NCBI RefSeq assembly: GCF_000150955.2 | Contig: NC_011673.1 | Span: 248,001-312,000 of the forward strand | Direction: 5' to 3' | From: Phaeodactylum tricornutum CCAP 1055/1 | Taxonomy: Eukaryota; Bacillariophyta; Bacillariophyceae; Surirellales; Neidiaceae | Length of the DNA stretch: 64,000 bases | Shown here: positions 10,104-54,507 of the stretch, piece after piece | Layout of the letters: every line of letters begins with the position of its first letter | Numbering within the stretch: the first letter of the stretch is position 1 | Translations under genes and position numbers: made by a program | Notes under the pieces: model-generated | Databases searched by the model: none | What the model was told of the DNA's origin: nothing | What the model saw: the letters and a program-made list of their open reading frames with translations, nothing else

Positions 10104-11945
10104 ATGATTGCGACGTATTATGCAATGGCTTCTTTATCGAGCGGAAAAATCATTGAAACAGACCAGCTGTATTCCGAGAAGACTTTGTCGTGGCTTAAGC
10201 AAGCACTTGAGCTTATACAGAAGAATGTCTCCGTCAATCAGCGAACAATAGAAGGCTACGCCTCGACTTACCTGAGCAGGTATGCGGATGACTCGGAGGA
10301 TGAACTTGTAGACGAGGATGAATCAAGATCGTCGTGCTCTTCTGAAGACGAATCTAGTGGCGATGCGAAAGGCAATAATATAGGAGACCCCGATGCGCAC
10401 TGTTCCACTTCGGCGACCAGTACGGAACTCTCTTCCGAAAGGCGTTTCACGCACAGGAAGAAAACAATCACCGATGATCGGCAACGTACGAATTTGGTAC
10501 GAAAGCATGTTGAATCGTTGAATAAGTTTCTCTTTCCCATCATTGATCCAAAGTATACGGTTCTAAGTCTACCAGCGGCCTTGCTTCCCAAGGAAGAGTT
10601 TCAAAGCAACAACGCTCTGAAAGCTTGCCAATTGTATTTGAAGCTCGCTTCAGATTTGGCTGCGAAGCGAAAGACGATAGTCGTTCTCTTTCTACGATCG
10701 GGACGTTTCGCCGGTGCCGTCTTTCAAGGTCGAGATTGTCTTGCACATCGTGTCTTGACGCGGTACACTGTTCGCAAAGGTCAAGGAAAGGCGCAATCGT
10801 CGCAAGACTCCCAGCGCAGGGCAAAGTCTATGGGATCGCAGCTGCGACGCGCTGGTGAACAATCCCTCCGAGAAGACATGTCGGCCACAGTCAAGGAGTG
10901 GAAGGTGCACTTCGACAATGCCGCATTGGTGATGGTATCATGTCCTAAGACAATGAGAAAGAGCTTGTTCGACAGTGTGGAAGTCGTCCTGTCCCGTGAT
11001 GATGCTCGTGTACGGCGAGTACCGCTCGATTTGGGCCGACCAACGTTCGAAAATGTTTCCTTGATTTACGAAAGTCTATTGACGGTTCAGGTAAGAGAAG
11101 TAAATGAGCCAGTTTTGAAACCGAAGATGTATGTTGAGGTAGAAGGAGCAGAGAAGAAAGAGACCACGCCAGCCAACACAAGTTGCCCCGATTCTTCGGA
11201 GGGAAAGGAAGATGACGATTTAGCGATACCATTGACGGCGCTACATGTAGCGGCCAAGACTGGATGTGCACAGGTTCTGAAAGATCTGCTTGCGGATGAC
11301 TGCACGGACATAAATCTATTAGCCGGTCCAGATTTGATGACGCCATTGCACTATGCGGCAGATTCGACCCTTTCTGACAATGTGGCGGCTCATTCTGCTG
11401 CTGAGTGCATAACGGTCTTGCTAATAGAAGGAAAAGCTAATCCAGGCTTGGTCGACATACGGCATAGACCCCCGTACTTCTTGGCTTCTCAAGACAAAGT
11501 CCGTGATGCCTTTCGCATGGCCCGTGCAAGACTGGGCGAATCATTTTGTGCCTGGGATGATGACGCAAAGGTAGGCCCGCCGCTCGCCGAGTCGGACTTG
11601 AAATTACGAAAGGAAAAAGAGGCCGAGAAACGACGAAAAAAGAAAATCAAACAAAAAGAAAAGAAAGCCAAAGAACGCGTTGAGACAGAAGCGTTCGCCA
11701 AACATAAGGAAGAAGAAGAAATTCGATTGCAAGAGGAGAAAGAAGCCAAACGGATACGGGATGGTCTGGAGTCGAAGGCTAGCTCCGCAACCAACGTGTG
11801 TGACTTTTGTCAGACGGTCTGTTCCGGTCGTCGCAGAAGCCAAATGCTCAAACGTCTCGACTACTCCTATTGTAGTTCCGAGTGCGTACAAAAGCACAAG
11901 CGTGAATTGATTGCAGCTGCGGCTCTATCTAGATTCGTTGGCTAG
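10104..11945 (+). CDS. VMS1: Vms1/ANKZF1-like peptidyl-tRNA hydrolase
   Basis: A 613-aa Vms1/ANKZF1 family protein. In yeast and animals these release stalled nascent chains from tRNA on 60S subunits during ribosome quality control. The VLRF1 release-factor-like domain spans about residues 188-290: FLRSGRFAGAVFQG, then HRVLTRYTVRKGQGKAQSSQ with the conserved glutamine region, then LRRAGEQSLREDM. Ankyrin repeats follow (about 378-452: IPLTALHVAAKTG and DLMTPLHYAAD), then a Lys/Glu-rich coiled coil (500-552). A C-terminal treble-clef cysteine motif follows (CDFC ... YCSSEC, 565-600), the VATC type. The N-terminus is acidic, with DDSEDELVDEDES, and lacks the C2H2 finger usual in the family. ATG 10104 is the first in the frame; an unseen upstream exon could supply the missing finger. 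Confidence 0.88.
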   Translation: MIATYYAMASLSSGKIIETDQLYSEKTLSWLKQALELIQKNVSVNQRTIEGYASTYLSRYADDSEDELVDEDESRSSCSSEDESSGDAKGNNIGDPDAHCSTSATSTELSSERRFTHRKKTITDDRQRTNLVRKHVESLNKFLFPIIDPKYTVLSLPAALLPKEEFQSNNALKACQLYLKLASDLAAKRKTIVVLFLRSGRFAGAVFQGRDCLAHRVLTRYTVRKGQGKAQSSQDSQRRAKSMGSQLRRAGEQSLREDMSATVKEWKVHFDNAALVMVSCPKTMRKSLFDSVEVVLSRDDARVRRVPLDLGRPTFENVSLIYESLLTVQVREVNEPVLKPKMYVEVEGAEKKETTPANTSCPDSSEGKEDDDLAIPLTALHVAAKTGCAQVLKDLLADDCTDINLLAGPDLMTPLHYAADSTLSDNVAAHSAAECITVLLIEGKANPGLVDIRHRPPYFLASQDKVRDAFRMARARLGESFCAWDDDAKVGPPLAESDLKLRKEKEAEKRRKKKIKQKEKKAKERVETEAFAKHKEEEEIRLQEEKEAKRIRDGLESKASSATNVCDFCQTVCSGRRRSQMLKRLDYSYCSSECVQKHKRELIAAAALSRFVG

Positions 11946-44470: not shown

Positions 44471-45762
44471 TCAACGAGCCAAATCAATATTGAAGTCCAA
44501 ATCGATGGATTCCTTGGACGCTTGCGATCCTTCCTCCAAAATCGTGTCGCAAGAGGCTGTTTGCGTAGCATCGGCAGAACGAATTCCACTGCAAGAGGCG
44601 CTTCGTGATCGTCCGGGAGACTGCACCTCCAATGGTTGCATCATAAAAGCGTGACCTTGACTACTACGAATAGGAGCAGCAAACGATGCAGAGCGTGGTC
44701 GACCTTCTTTGCGTTCATCCCGAAGATCAAAGGCTGGCTGCTGTTGCGTCGCGCTGACACCAGACCTCTTCAACCCAAGCTGCTTATGAGTTGCTTCTGA
44801 TGCTGCCATCTTCATGTAAGAGCCTCTTACAGAATCTAAACTCTTAGCCAAGATGCTGGTATCGAACAGCATGGGAGATATTGATCCTTCCGTAGAAGCT
44901 GCGGGGTCACCAGCCACAGCAACAGCAAAAGGCAGTCGGTGTTGTAACTCTACGTTTTTTTGATGATTGCTGAACTGGAGTCTCTTGATCGGCGGATGCT
45001 CTGTTCCTATCGATTTCCTAGGAGGTGGCGGAGGCATGATACTTTTCTTCACCAAAGGAACAATTTCGTTGTCACTGTTGAGCATAAAGGACGAGACTCC
45101 TTTGCGCGAAGAAACTTTCTTCGTCGTGGATACAGTTGACGAACGGGCGCTGGAAGTACTAGAGCGTTCCAAAGTACTCCTGGCCTGCCGGGCGACCAGA
45201 TAGCAGACGAGGCACACGTGCTGCCGACTCAGATCACGTCGACCGGGTGCTTGTCCGACTTGTTTGGCGCGAATTGCTCGACACCGACGGTAGTGTGCGA
45301 GAAGCTTCCGAGCCTGATCACAGCCGTGATAGCCAGTTGGACATTCGAAGCCGACTCCAGCAGCACAAGTTTTGATGTGTAAATGAAGCAATTTGGCTTC
45401 ATGACAACCGGTGTGTGGGCATCTGTCCCCCAAAACGCAATTCTGTTGAAGAAAGATACCACTCAGATTTTAGAATTACAAAGGAGGGCAAAACGGAAAC
45501 GGTTTCCCGCAAGAAAACCTACCTGTGCATGAAGTAAAGTCCAAATAGTCGAGGCTGCGCGCTTCGCTTTTACCACTACAGTCTCTACATTAGGAGTTCC
45601 TGTTGCCACCGACATCGCCCTTCGACGGCCTCCTCCATTCTGCGAGTCGGTCCTAGCAGCATCCGCACTTGCGGAACTACTCGTAGAATAATTGGACGTA
45701 GAGGCGGCATTTACGGCAGCATATTCAGCAGGCGTTGTTGCGGGATCTATTCTATCAACCAT
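44471..45762 (-). CDS. TAZ-type zinc-finger protein
   Basis: A 403-aa protein with one TAZ finger, as found in CBP/p300 coactivators and plant BT proteins. Exons 45762-45523 and 45442-44471, with a gtaggt donor and ttcaacag acceptor; the junction gives TIWTLLHAQ then NCVLGDRCPHTGCHEAKLL. The finger continues HLHIKTCAAGVGFECPTGYH, GCDQARKLLAHYRRCRA and, farther on, RQHVCLVCYLVARQARS, so one Cys/His module is split by the intron. The N-terminal 80 residues are Ser/Ala/Asn-rich; the C-terminal 250 are low complexity with MPPPPPRKS and Ser/Arg stretches. No HAT or BTB domain is seen, so it may be a stand-alone adaptor of transcription. ATG 45762. Confidence 0.85.
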
Positions 45763-46827: not shown

Positions 46828-48916
46828 ATGTTGCAGTCGCCAGTTCAACCCTTAAATTGTTCATTGCGTGTTCGTAAAAAGTCGCCTACCGCCGACAAAA
46901 GCTTCAAGTGGCCTGCGGAATTTATCGACGATCAACTCAATCCACTCATGGACGATATGTTCGATGACGACGATATGGGGAGTGCCGGAGATGGCGGCAA
47001 CGTGAAAGGGAGAAACAAGTCTAGGAGAGAGTTACCCGCCGGAGCTGTTGCCACGCTTAAGGCGTGGCTGCTCTCCCCCGAGCACTTCACGCATCCCTAT
47101 CCAACGCCACAAGACCAAGTTATGCTTATGCAAAAGACAGGCATTGACAAGAAACAGCTCAAAAATTGGTTTACGAATGCACGCCGCCGAATATGGAAAC
47201 CCATGCTAAAAAAACAGATTGAACAGGGAAAACTCACCGCAACGGGAGGGATTCCCGGGTCCATCCAGGGATTATTGATGCCCAGCATGGCAGGCGCTCC
47301 GGCTCCGAATGGATCGATGGACAATCCGCATTCGGTACAAGCGATGCGTGTGCATTATCAGCAAGTGGTAGATCAAACCCAAAGTCAGCAACAGCAGGTA
47401 CGTTTGGTCATGTGTGGTTCCGAATGGGTGAATTGTTGAATGACCCGCTTCATTCTTACATTTTGTCCTTACTCAGTCCTCGTCGGGATCTACCGACATA
47501 TACGGTAATTCGATCTACTCGTCGGCGCCCTCTAACGAACAAACGAACGATGCACACTACTACTCCTCCACACTCCCGTCAGATCAGGGTATGCAATCAA
47601 ACCCTCAACTGTCAACGAGCAGCTCGATCGGCACCCTGCCTCAGCTGTCCTCAAGTACGCAATTGAGCAAAACCGACAGTCATGCTGTGCTCATGGAATT
47701 GTTCGCCCGTGATCAAGATCTCGTACGGCAGGCAACCGAGTCAGCGCGTCTGAAGGCAGAAGCCAAGCAACATCCTCAAACAACAAGCATTGCTTCACAG
47801 CAACAAGGCGCAAATCAAAATCCCATGAAAGCACCGTCTCACAATGCTCTTCCAAACGTGCCAACGCTGAACTCGTGGCCGCATTTCTCAAGCATCACAT
47901 CGTTGAGTAATCTCGGAACTATTCCGGGTGTAAAGAGCGTCAGTTCACTCAGTGGAGCGGACTTAGCGAGCCAGGGGAATCTGAACAAAATGGGTAATCT
48001 GGCTCAAGTGAAGAGTATGGATTCCATAGGGAAAAATGACTCGTATGCGTTTCTGGAAGTGTTCTTTGGTGGTGACCGTAATTCAACAAACAATCTTAAT
48101 GCAATGGGAGGTCGGGATCAAAAAGGAGCTACCAAACCTTCAGGCGATGAAGATAACGAGATTGGCTTGTCTTTGGAAGACGAATCGCCTTCGCAGTCAA
48201 TGCGTAAGGAATATTCGTTGCCTGCGTCAGTGTCGGGGGCTCCTAGGCTGGCTGCTTTGTCGAGTATGGGGTCAGAAACGTCGAATACCGATACGGGAAC
48301 TCTGAAACGCGCGTATGATGATGCTTTGGCAGCCCGTGGTCTCATGTCCGTAAGCAGAAGCTGTGAAAAACTTACTGATTTGGTGTTACCAGCGAAGATT
48401 CAGCGTACACTATCCCAGGAGTTCATCAATCGCGAAAAACATCAACAATACGGCCAGTATTCCTATCCACCAGCTTCGGCTCCAGTAGGTTTGGGCCAAG
48501 AAGGAGAGACCTCGCATCAGCATCCAGGACAACACGCTGTTGAAATGCCGGAAGAACGAAGTAGTCAGTATAAGCTGCATTATGGAAAGGACGGCGCATC
48601 TTCAGTTGATCCGAGTGAAGGGGATGGTCATGTCCAAGTTCCGTCGGAGACGATATGTGCGCTGTGCTCACAGACCAATGTCGACACTCAATTGCGTCCC
48701 TGTGGACACATGTTTCACGAGCGCTGCCTTAAACCGAGCCTGCAAACTCCAGTAGGGCCGCCCAAGTGTCCTATCGATCACATTCCAATGCAATCGGCAC
48801 TCTTAGCCGTGCCAACGGACAATCCGCAGCCACAACAGCAGAAGCAGCAGAATTCTTGGAGCTATTCCAGCAACGGGAACTTGCAAACTTTATCCACAGA
48901 AAGCCCAGGGCTATAG
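46828..48916 (+). CDS. TALE homeodomain protein with C-terminal RING-like finger
   Basis: Exons 46828-47397 and 47477-48916 (phase 0, gtacgt donor, actcag acceptor) give 669 aa. Near residues 65-127 is a TALE homeodomain: RRELPAGAVATLKAWLLSPE, then HFTHPYPTPQDQVMLMQKTG, IDKKQLKNWFTNARRRIWKP; HPYPT is the three-residue loop extension. A Gln/Ser/Asn-rich middle holds two short related motifs, KTDSHAVLMELF and KNDSYAFLEVFF. Near residues 581-627 is a RING-like finger: ICALCSQTNVDTQLRPCGHM, FHERCLKPSLQTPVGPPKCP, IDH, with Asp in place of the last Cys. The homeodomain suggests DNA binding; the RING suggests E3 ligase or protein contact. The two exons are clearly continuous, so this is one protein, not neighbours. 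Tail is Gln-rich. Confidence 0.86.
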
Positions 48917-49373: not shown

Positions 49374-50531
49374 TCAAGATGGAGGCGATGGCTTTGGCTT
49401 AAAGAAGGATGCAATTCCACTAGTTTTGATTTTGGTCTTTTTCGTCGGAGTTTGGCTGTTTTGATGACTCTTCGCATTCCGTTTCGACAGAGAGGTAGGT
49501 GGTTTCTTGCGCGACGGGGATCTAGACGGTGAAGAATCCAATTTCTTGTCATTTTCCATCACGGCGAAAAACGATTGAATCGATTTTGGCTGCGGCAGTG
49601 CCTTAATAGCTTCCGACGAGCGAAATTTGGGTTTCGACATTTCCGACGTCACGGCATGCCAAGCCAAAAGGTTGTCTTTTGTATTTCGAGAGGCGTCTTC
49701 TAACTTGCGGTGGCATCTTTGCGTTGGATGTCGCAACCATTCCCAGGCCAAAGCGTCCTCCCATACACAAACTGGCATACGAGTATGTAGCCATTGTAGT
49801 GGCGGACAAGCTTCCGTGGTCACTATTGTGAAAGTATCGAGCGTATCGCCGTCCGCCAGTCCAGTAGGAACACTTGTCCATAAGCCCGCCAATAAAAGAT
49901 ACGGCCGAGAGGATGCTTTACAGTCAGTAGGAAGTCCCCGTTGCCTATTTTCTTCTGCTTTTTGGTTTTCGTGTTGCTTGCGGTAAACGAAATAAGGCTG
50001 TTTCTTTCCCACGACAGTTTTCCATTCAAAAAATCCGTCTACCGCAATCAAGCAGGTCTTGCCTGATGTCGCGAGTCGTCCAAAGGTCGGCTTGGTATAA
50101 AGGGTATCAGAACGAGCGTTGAACATAAGATTGCTAAAATGCTTGCCCATGCCGTCCTCGATCGGCTTCTCTTCGCTTCCACCCCGTGTTATTAAGCCCC
50201 AAGTCTTTCGCGTTGCGCGAACAGTGTCAAATTTGTCTTTCCAAAAGACGACTGCATCCATCCCAGGGCTGAGATTAAAATTGTTGCGCAACTCAGAAGA
50301 CTCGTTGTCATGCAACGAAGAAAACATGGATTCCTTGACCACAGATAATGGCTTTGAGGATGAAGAGCTTCTTTGAGCATCAGTAGATTCCATGTGTTGC
50401 TGTTGCTTCTCTGGCCCCGAAAAATTCGTCGTACTACCAGCGTTCGACTTTGACGTAGTCTCGAGAGCTATTCCTAAACTTTTCGCGGCAGCTCGGACGG
50501 CATCTCCTGTTTGTGCGGTTCGGCCACACAT
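49374..50531 (-). CDS. HMCES: HMCES/YedK-type SRAP abasic-site protein
   Basis: A 385-aa SRAP-domain protein. HMCES forms a covalent DNA-protein crosslink with abasic sites in single-stranded DNA through Cys2 and shields them during replication. Here MCGRTAQ keeps Cys2 directly after Met. Later: NFNLSPGMDAVVFW (asparagine region), FSNLMFNARSDTLYTKP, CLIAVDGFFEWK (catalytic Glu), FTIVTTEACPPLQWLHTRMP with the catalytic His. An insert rich in Ser/Gln lies at about residues 30-75, within the N-terminal part. The C-terminal about 90 residues are basic and carry two FF-ending motifs (KSIQSFFAV and SGIASFFKPK) resembling degenerate PCNA-binding boxes. ATG 50531; single exon. Confidence 0.9.
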   Translation of the reverse strand: MCGRTAQTGDAVRAAAKSLGIALETTSKSNAGSTTNFSGPEKQQQHMESTDAQRSSSSSKPLSVVKESMFSSLHDNESSELRNNFNLSPGMDAVVFWKDKFDTVRATRKTWGLITRGGSEEKPIEDGMGKHFSNLMFNARSDTLYTKPTFGRLATSGKTCLIAVDGFFEWKTVVGKKQPYFVYRKQHENQKAEENRQRGLPTDCKASSRPYLLLAGLWTSVPTGLADGDTLDTFTIVTTEACPPLQWLHTRMPVCVWEDALAWEWLRHPTQRCHRKLEDASRNTKDNLLAWHAVTSEMSKPKFRSSEAIKALPQPKSIQSFFAVMENDKKLDSSPSRSPSRKKPPTSLSKRNAKSHQNSQTPTKKTKIKTSGIASFFKPKPSPPS

Positions 50532-51819: not shown

Positions 51820-54507
51820 ATGAACGGAACAACGCCCGGGGGGTCTATTCCCTTGCAAAAAGGCGAGATTGATCACCACTCGCATACGGACGAGTTCGAG
51901 CGCCCCTTGTCCGCTCCTCCGCCCCCAGGTTTCGGCAGCGGTTTAGAAGAACGAAATCGGATTGCATCATCACTCTTTTGGCCGCAACCGGCCGCTCAAC
52001 AAGAAAATCCTCATGCGCAATCACAAAAGACCGCCTCGACTTCTTCATCGAAAGACGGTACAGATACAGATTCGGGCAAACGCCGGACCTCCTCCTTCAG
52101 CAACTTGGCCGCAGTGCTGGGTACAGGCCTTGCCCAATCAATGGAAGATGCGACACACGAAGCCGCCCAACAGCAATTGCACCTACAGCATCATCATGAG
52201 GCCCTTTTGAACAACAGCAATAAGGATGATTTGAATTTACACCGTCAAACTCGACACGCGGCTTCTCGTTTGATCGGAGCGTCGCCTCCGAATTATGGTG
52301 ATTTATTGCTACGTGCTCCTACTGGCAATCACGCTCTCGGTGGCGCCCCGGCGTCTTTGTTTGATTCACGATTGTACACAAAAAGCACTAATCCCACGAC
52401 GAAGACATCGCCCTCATCATCGTTGGCCCAGGCTGCGGCGGCTGGAGGATCCCGCCACCTCAGCAGTCACGATGGGACCGCTATGAGTTCCTTTGGCTTT
52501 CCCACCTCGCTTAGCAATCCTTCGCCCTCTGTAGATTTTTCCGGCGACAGGCAACATTTGCTGCACAATCATACTAAAGACGCTCCAATGGAAATGTTTT
52601 CTGGACATAATGCTGCTCGCCGGGCCAAAGAAATTGTTACGGACCTGAGCGAACCAGAGAACGAGTCCCAGTATACAAGTGGACATCGCAGTTTGCCGTC
52701 AAAGTTAAATCACAACAACGGTACTAACCACAATAGCGGTATTCCGGAACTGGAAGAACACATGTCGGGTTTGTGGTCGACCAATGCACGCGAGTTTAAA
52801 CCATCCAACTTCAACGATGGTGCGTCGGCAGCTTCGTCTATTTCCGATACCGTCGGTGCCGGCACCGAAGTTTCTGCCCGCCAAGCTGAAAGCGAACTTC
52901 GGCCTTATTTATGGGATGTGGATCGGAACAGATCATCTCGAACCTTAGCCGTTTTGCACAGTTCTTGGTTGCGCACGCCAGATGTCCGCAATGCGTGTGA
53001 AACATTTGGGGTACTCGAAAGTTTTCGGGCCGATTTCAGCACGAAAGGAATCTTCTTTGTGTCCTATTATGACATTCGGTCTGCTCAATATGCAGCTATT
53101 GAGTTGCAACCCATTCTACAGCGTCTGGCTGTGGTTCAGGGCAGTAGTGACGAAGTTATGGTACGCTACTGCTTGCCCCTCAATGCCAGTTCACAGTTTG
53201 ACGAATCGCAAGTCAATATTCACGATCTGCCCGATGAAGTCGACGAGCATGCTTTGACGCATATGTTGTCCAGCTACGGTGCTGTGCGGAGCATTATTCC
53301 GCAAGGAGAAGGATCATTCGTGGTAGAGTTCCAAAACGTTCAGGATGCGAAACAGGCATTGCTGGAAATGGAAAGCTCTCAACCTTACGGGTCAAATGTA
53401 ACTGTCGAAGTTGGTCTTAGAAATCCTACGGAACGCAAACGAGGCCGTGAACTTTTGACAGTGATATCACGATGGCGACACGGGTCTCGCAATACTTCCA
53501 ATATTTCTGGTGTGGGGGCGGCTCAAAAATACACCAGTATGCAACAGCAAAGCTCATGCTCGTCAAGCGATCGTTGGAGACCACTCTCAGTTAACAGTGG
53601 AGCCTCGCTACCCGGTATGTCTGCAGATCGGACGTTTGGTGGGGGTGGAGCATACGGACGCGCCCAAGAAGTGCCGACAAGTACGACACAGTTGATTCTT
53701 GGTCAGGATGGACGATACATGCAAGTGGTCGTGCAGAACCCTCCTTTTCCCGGGATGGATCATCGACAAGCACCTCATCAGCAGATTGTGCATGGACCGA
53801 ACGGCCAGATTTATATAACGAGTGTTCCACAAATGGGCCATCAGGGCGGACCTGTTTATTTACAGTCGCAGCACCAGGCATTTCCTGGTGAAATGGCAGC
53901 GAAATCAGGTTACACAGACGGCCCTCGCCGACAGAACGGTTCCGTGAGCTCACACTATTCGTTACACTATATTAGTGACGCGAATTCAGCCAGCGGTTTG
54001 TCCGGACGATCCCATCGATCTTCGCATTCCGCCAGCGAAGACAAGGATAATCGTCATTTGACGATGGACTTGGACGCTGTGGAGGTTGGGCATGACACTC
54101 GAACCTCTTTGATGGTCAGAAACATACCCAATAAGTACACCCAGCAGATGCTTCTTACCGAGTTTATGGACAACGGCCACGGCCCTGGAGTCATCGATTT
54201 TTTCTATTTGCCAATCGATTTCAAAAACAGGTGCAACAGAGGCTACGCTTTCATCAACTTTGTGGACTTTAAGGACATTCTACCGTTTCACCGTCGCTAT
54301 TTCGGAAAGCACTGGCGGACTTTCAACAGTGACAAGATCTGTGACATAACCTACGCACGAATTCAAGGCAAGGGCGCCATGCTGAAGCGATTTGAGAATT
54401 CGGCACTGATGGAAAAGGATGATGAGTACAAGCCTCTCGTTTTTGTGAGCGATGGTCCAGAAAAGGGCCAGCGCCTTCCCTTTCCTGATCCCAACAAGCT
54501 AACGTAG
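51820..54507 (+). CDS. Mei2-like RNA-binding protein
   Basis: An 895-aa protein with the Mei2 three-RRM order. The N-terminal 350 residues are Ser/Gln/His-rich. RRM1 starts near 360 (SSRTLAVLHSSWLRTPDVRN then GIFFVSYYDIRSAQYAAIEL), RRM2 near 464 (QVNIHDLPDEVDEHALTHML then GSFVVEFQNVQDAKQALLEM). A long Gln/Gly/His linker follows. The Mei2-specific RRM3 starts near 761: TSLMVRNIPNKYTQQMLLTE, FMDNGHGPGVIDFFYLPIDF, NRGYAFINFVDFKDILPFHR, DICDITYARIQGKGAM-like core and a QRLPFPDP tail. In fission yeast Mei2 drives meiosis; in plants AML proteins act in meiosis and growth. Here the role is not known. Single large exon. Confidence 0.92.
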   Translation: MNGTTPGGSIPLQKGEIDHHSHTDEFERPLSAPPPPGFGSGLEERNRIASSLFWPQPAAQQENPHAQSQKTASTSSSKDGTDTDSGKRRTSSFSNLAAVLGTGLAQSMEDATHEAAQQQLHLQHHHEALLNNSNKDDLNLHRQTRHAASRLIGASPPNYGDLLLRAPTGNHALGGAPASLFDSRLYTKSTNPTTKTSPSSSLAQAAAAGGSRHLSSHDGTAMSSFGFPTSLSNPSPSVDFSGDRQHLLHNHTKDAPMEMFSGHNAARRAKEIVTDLSEPENESQYTSGHRSLPSKLNHNNGTNHNSGIPELEEHMSGLWSTNAREFKPSNFNDGASAASSISDTVGAGTEVSARQAESELRPYLWDVDRNRSSRTLAVLHSSWLRTPDVRNACETFGVLESFRADFSTKGIFFVSYYDIRSAQYAAIELQPILQRLAVVQGSSDEVMVRYCLPLNASSQFDESQVNIHDLPDEVDEHALTHMLSSYGAVRSIIPQGEGSFVVEFQNVQDAKQALLEMESSQPYGSNVTVEVGLRNPTERKRGRELLTVISRWRHGSRNTSNISGVGAAQKYTSMQQQSSCSSSDRWRPLSVNSGASLPGMSADRTFGGGGAYGRAQEVPTSTTQLILGQDGRYMQVVVQNPPFPGMDHRQAPHQQIVHGPNGQIYITSVPQMGHQGGPVYLQSQHQAFPGEMAAKSGYTDGPRRQNGSVSSHYSLHYISDANSASGLSGRSHRSSHSASEDKDNRHLTMDLDAVEVGHDTRTSLMVRNIPNKYTQQMLLTEFMDNGHGPGVIDFFYLPIDFKNRCNRGYAFINFVDFKDILPFHRRYFGKHWRTFNSDKICDITYARIQGKGAMLKRFENSALMEKDDEYKPLVFVSDGPEKGQRLPFPDPNKLT

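Follow-up and report, generated by a model that had tools for sequence, protein, structure and literature searches.

A TALE-class homeodomain and a RING finger combined in one predicted protein of a eukaryotic locus

In this work we describe a locus within a window of 64,000 nucleotides, the whole stretch of DNA that was analysed, at which two forward-strand frames, 46828-47397 and 47477-48916, join into a 669-aa product that translates without internal stop. Exon 1 (46828..47397, +) is an open frame of 190 codons that encodes an acidic N-terminus, the homeodomain and the start of a linker, and exon 2 (47477..48916, +) is an open frame of 479 codons plus stop that encodes the S/Q-rich linker and a RING finger. 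Between them lies a predicted intron of 79 nt (47398-47476, +), recognised from sequence and frame, with GT-AG boundaries (GTACGT at its 5' end, CTCAG at its 3' end) and phase 0. The first-pass annotation had proposed one phase 0 intron and a continuous frame of 669 aa at exactly these positions, and translation reproduces this model to the nucleotide.

Several neighbouring genes can be recognised from their domain matches. Downstream of and convergent with the locus is a SRAP (HMCES/YedK-type) domain protein (49374-50531, -; E=2.4e-39), followed by an 895-aa frame (51820-54507, +) that carries RRM_2, a Mei2-type C-terminal RRM (E=4e-36), together with an RRM_1 match. On the other side, a frame at 44471-45433 (-) has a TAZ zinc-finger match of 24.2 bits, slightly short of the 25 bits that Pfam requires. 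Elsewhere in the window, a frame at 10104-11945 (+) matching bVLRF1, ankyrin and the Vms1-associating treble clef looks like a Vms1/ANKZF1-type release factor, and an Rpc34 subunit is also encoded. Neighbours such as the Rpc34 subunit and the Mei2-type RRM protein indicate that the window is eukaryotic. A diatom as probable source, suggested in the first-pass annotation, agrees with the GC content of 48%.

Support for the gene model comes from codon preference, expressed as a log-odds score under a single scheme of our own choosing. The training set consisted of 24 further long ORFs of the window with 9,879 codons in total, and these ORFs themselves score about 0 to 0.12. Exon 1, at 0.053, and exon 2, at 0.041, resemble them, and the first 114 nt of exon 2, which precede its earliest internal ATG, are likewise coding-like at 0.098. 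Two of the three intron frames are non-coding-like (-0.259 and -0.430), and the remaining one, which scores 0.073 over 26 codons only, cannot be told apart from coding sequence. Scored in sliding windows, the exon-1 frame is ahead until the donor. Inside exon 2 the exon-2 frame is ahead except in two windows; upstream, this frame meets a stop within the intron and is open only from 47444. Since the coding signal moves into a frame that is closed upstream by an intronic stop, one spliced gene is favoured over two as the best gene model, with an exon-intron structure that is predicted from sequence.

The N-terminal domain is a TALE-class homeodomain region spanning residues 65-130 (47020..47217, +). 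Pfam Homeobox_KN (PF05920) matches residues 85-121 with E=2.6e-16 and 59.6 bits against a cut-off of 24, and the best solved sequence is MEIS2 (5.4e-13). A single-sequence AlphaFold2 model of this region folds into three helices with a mean pLDDT of 79.6, and Foldseek places it closest to MEIS1 and TGIF1 (probability 1.00), its top five matches having TM-scores by target of 0.80-0.87 with a best E of 1.4e-03, none of them below 0.001. The recognition helix is MEIS-like, with N51, R53, R54 and R55 retained and Thr at residue 50. An extended, PYP-bearing loop between helices 1 and 2, together with the three-helix fold of the model, places the domain in the TALE class. The initial description of a three-residue-loop homeodomain thus stands as to its class, as judged from Homeobox_KN and the fold, while the label itself is not strictly correct: compared with MEIS/TGIF, the loop carries two extra residues, which precede the HPYPT motif and distinguish the protein also from the four TALE homeodomains of a metagenome-assembled genome (G001) discussed below. 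The usual partner domains of TALE proteins went undetected: no KNOX, MEIS, PBC or BELL domain appears among the Pfam matches of the full 669-aa protein at E up to 1. An NCBIfam search of the protein gave no match.

The second domain is a predicted RING finger at residues 584-624 (48656..48778, +), for which the putative zinc ligands are C584, C587, C599, H601, H604, C607, C621 and, by position, D624. Compared with the published RING signature, C-x2-C-x(9-39)-C-x(1-3)-H-x(2-3)-C/H-x2-C-x(4-48)-C-x2-C (PMC6118397), seven ligands and all spacings agree, and the eighth ligand is Asp. Asp in this position is documented in RBX1 (PMC7280518) and also described for the Arabidopsis family FHH11 (PMC6118397). 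The zf-C3HC4 model (PF00097) reaches 22.2 bits in the full protein against a curated cut-off of 21, and 27.2 bits for a 70-aa segment; the other Pfam RING models score the region under their cut-offs, with zf-rbx1 matching only below its own. None of nine shuffled versions of the 70-aa segment gave a RING match, and when the whole protein was shuffled 20,000 times the spacing pattern never arose. Among solved sequences, RING E3 ligases such as AMFR, Arkadia, synoviolin and BRE1 come nearest, at modest E-values from 3.5e-05; the single-sequence model of the finger has a pLDDT of 46.7, too low to use. Taken with the shuffles, the spacing and the PF00097 match bear out the earlier reading of a RING-like C-C-C-H-H-C-C-D finger, and a domain search of the 669-aa product returns both Homeobox_KN and zf-C3HC4 over cut-off.

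In active RINGs a hydrophobic E2-contact residue precedes the second ligand, and a linchpin residue, mostly Arg or Lys, follows the eighth, according to PMC13061254. At the first of these positions the window protein has L586, hydrophobic as in active RINGs, while the linchpin position is occupied by H625 and the Trp that is common between ligands 6 and 7 (C607 to C621) is missing. The DNA-bound E3 ligase or self-degrading regulator that the first-pass annotation raised as an idea stays a hypothesis: the sequence is compatible with a RING E3 having two weakened catalytic positions, and these two departures leave its activity uncertain.

A TALE homeodomain and a RING finger in one predicted protein is thus a supported assignment, as the first-pass annotation had it, with both domain matches lying in the same 669-aa frame, and represents an unusual combination of two ordinary parts. 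A non-exhaustive check of the openly licensed literature turned up no described family that combines the two domains, and nothing in it contradicts the first-pass remark that no established family of this kind is known. Searches of IMG/VR, plasmids and prokaryote genomes, collections that are viral, plasmid and prokaryotic in content, returned no protein carrying both domains; one query row in the IMG/VR and prokaryote-genome searches, a constructed homeodomain of stramenopile-like type, served as bait and has no evidential weight. Three further PF05920 searches, comprising 1,159 overlapping genome look-ups, added two matches, both below cut-off. A metagenome-assembled genome titled Verrucomicrobiaceae (G001) contains four TALE homeodomain frames, which suggests that it probably includes eukaryotic contigs and that these frames are likely contamination from a eukaryote. 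The stretches read around them, one of which is a whole contig of 3 kb, contain no uninterrupted match to the RING pattern; this is a weak negative, as introns and contig ends might hide a RING. In the literature, four TALE genes are listed for P. tricornutum (PMC4827209), and stramenopile TALE factors have been surveyed in PMC6368402, in which the word RING is absent from the main text and the gene list is placed in a supplement.

To account for these features we propose, at about even chance, that one nuclear gene encodes a 669-aa TALE factor whose C-terminal RING recruits a ubiquitin E2. The homeodomain would bind DNA through its MEIS-like recognition helix, the S/Q-rich linker would probably serve as a disordered tether, and the RING, once folded around zinc, would probably recruit the E2, such that the factor itself, a bound partner or a neighbouring chromatin protein could become ubiquitinated. 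The outcome may be either a limit on the lifetime of the factor or the remodelling of a complex at its target sites. Two additional ideas were considered and set aside. An internal repeat in the linker was dropped because its best pair was equalled in 30 of 1000 shuffles and a DSxA pair lay near the shuffle mean, and autoregulation through upstream MEIS-like sites was rejected, there being no excess of such sites.

The main rival, owing to H625 and the absent Trp, is that the same single protein uses its RING as a non-catalytic interaction or dimerisation module, which would make it a TALE factor with a RING-shaped docking site. We regard this as rather unlikely, even though the score in the full protein lies barely above one cut-off and under others, given that L586 retains the hydrophobic character of active RINGs at the E2-contact position and that RBX1, which has no Cys at its eighth ligand, is still active as a cullin partner. 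A further alternative divides the locus into two genes: the homeodomain gene would end within the putative intron or close to it, and a downstream RING gene would start from an internal ATG, e.g. at 47591. Exon 1 read into the intron does stop after 203 aa, exon 2 alone offers a 441-aa frame from that ATG, and one intron frame has a coding-like score; however, the exon-2 frame already scores as coding over the 114 nt that separate the acceptor from this ATG, and good GT-AG sites unite the two frames exactly and leave no space for an intergenic region, such that we consider this division highly improbable.

Compatible with the RING-E2 reading, and best regarded as an addition to it, is a splicing switch in which retention of the intron would yield a homeodomain-only protein of 203 aa that either competes with the form carrying the RING or escapes it. 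Retention would keep the entire homeodomain ahead of an in-frame stop, and intron retention is reported to be prominent in P. tricornutum (PMC5859163), which would bear on this intron if the window is from that species. Most introns of 79 nt would truncate a protein if retained, however, and we consider such a switch quite improbable. More broadly, the protein could belong to a family of TALE-RING E3s, conserved among stramenopiles, that are tethered to DNA and act site-specifically, in which splicing perhaps selects between the RING-bearing and the homeodomain-only form; this extension is speculative and, in our judgement, unlikely.

In plants as well as brown algae, TALE factors govern transitions of the life cycle (PMC6368402). 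If true, a RING built into a TALE protein would unite DNA targeting and protein turnover in one chain, and if the host is a transformable diatom, the coupling would be open to direct testing.

Compared with known systems, the homeodomain resembles animal MEIS and TGIF in sequence and predicted fold, sharing the HPYP loop and the WFxNARRR helix, but differs in its two additional loop residues, in Thr at position 50, in an undetected MEIS domain and in its C-terminal RING. ORO and SAM of brown algae are likewise stramenopile TALE proteins with a single homeodomain, largely disordered and without KNOX/BELL-type domains (PMC6368402); they are set apart, by description, through flanking domains that match no known domain and a main text in which a RING is unmentioned. 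Outside brown algae, an ORO-like protein is reported there from Heterosigma only. With the RING E3s AMFR, Arkadia and RBX1 the finger shares its ligand spacing, AMFR and Arkadia being among its nearest solved sequences, and with RBX1 the Asp at the eighth ligand; in contrast to these proteins, the window RING scores under the zf-rbx1 cut-off, carries a His linchpin and is joined to a homeodomain.
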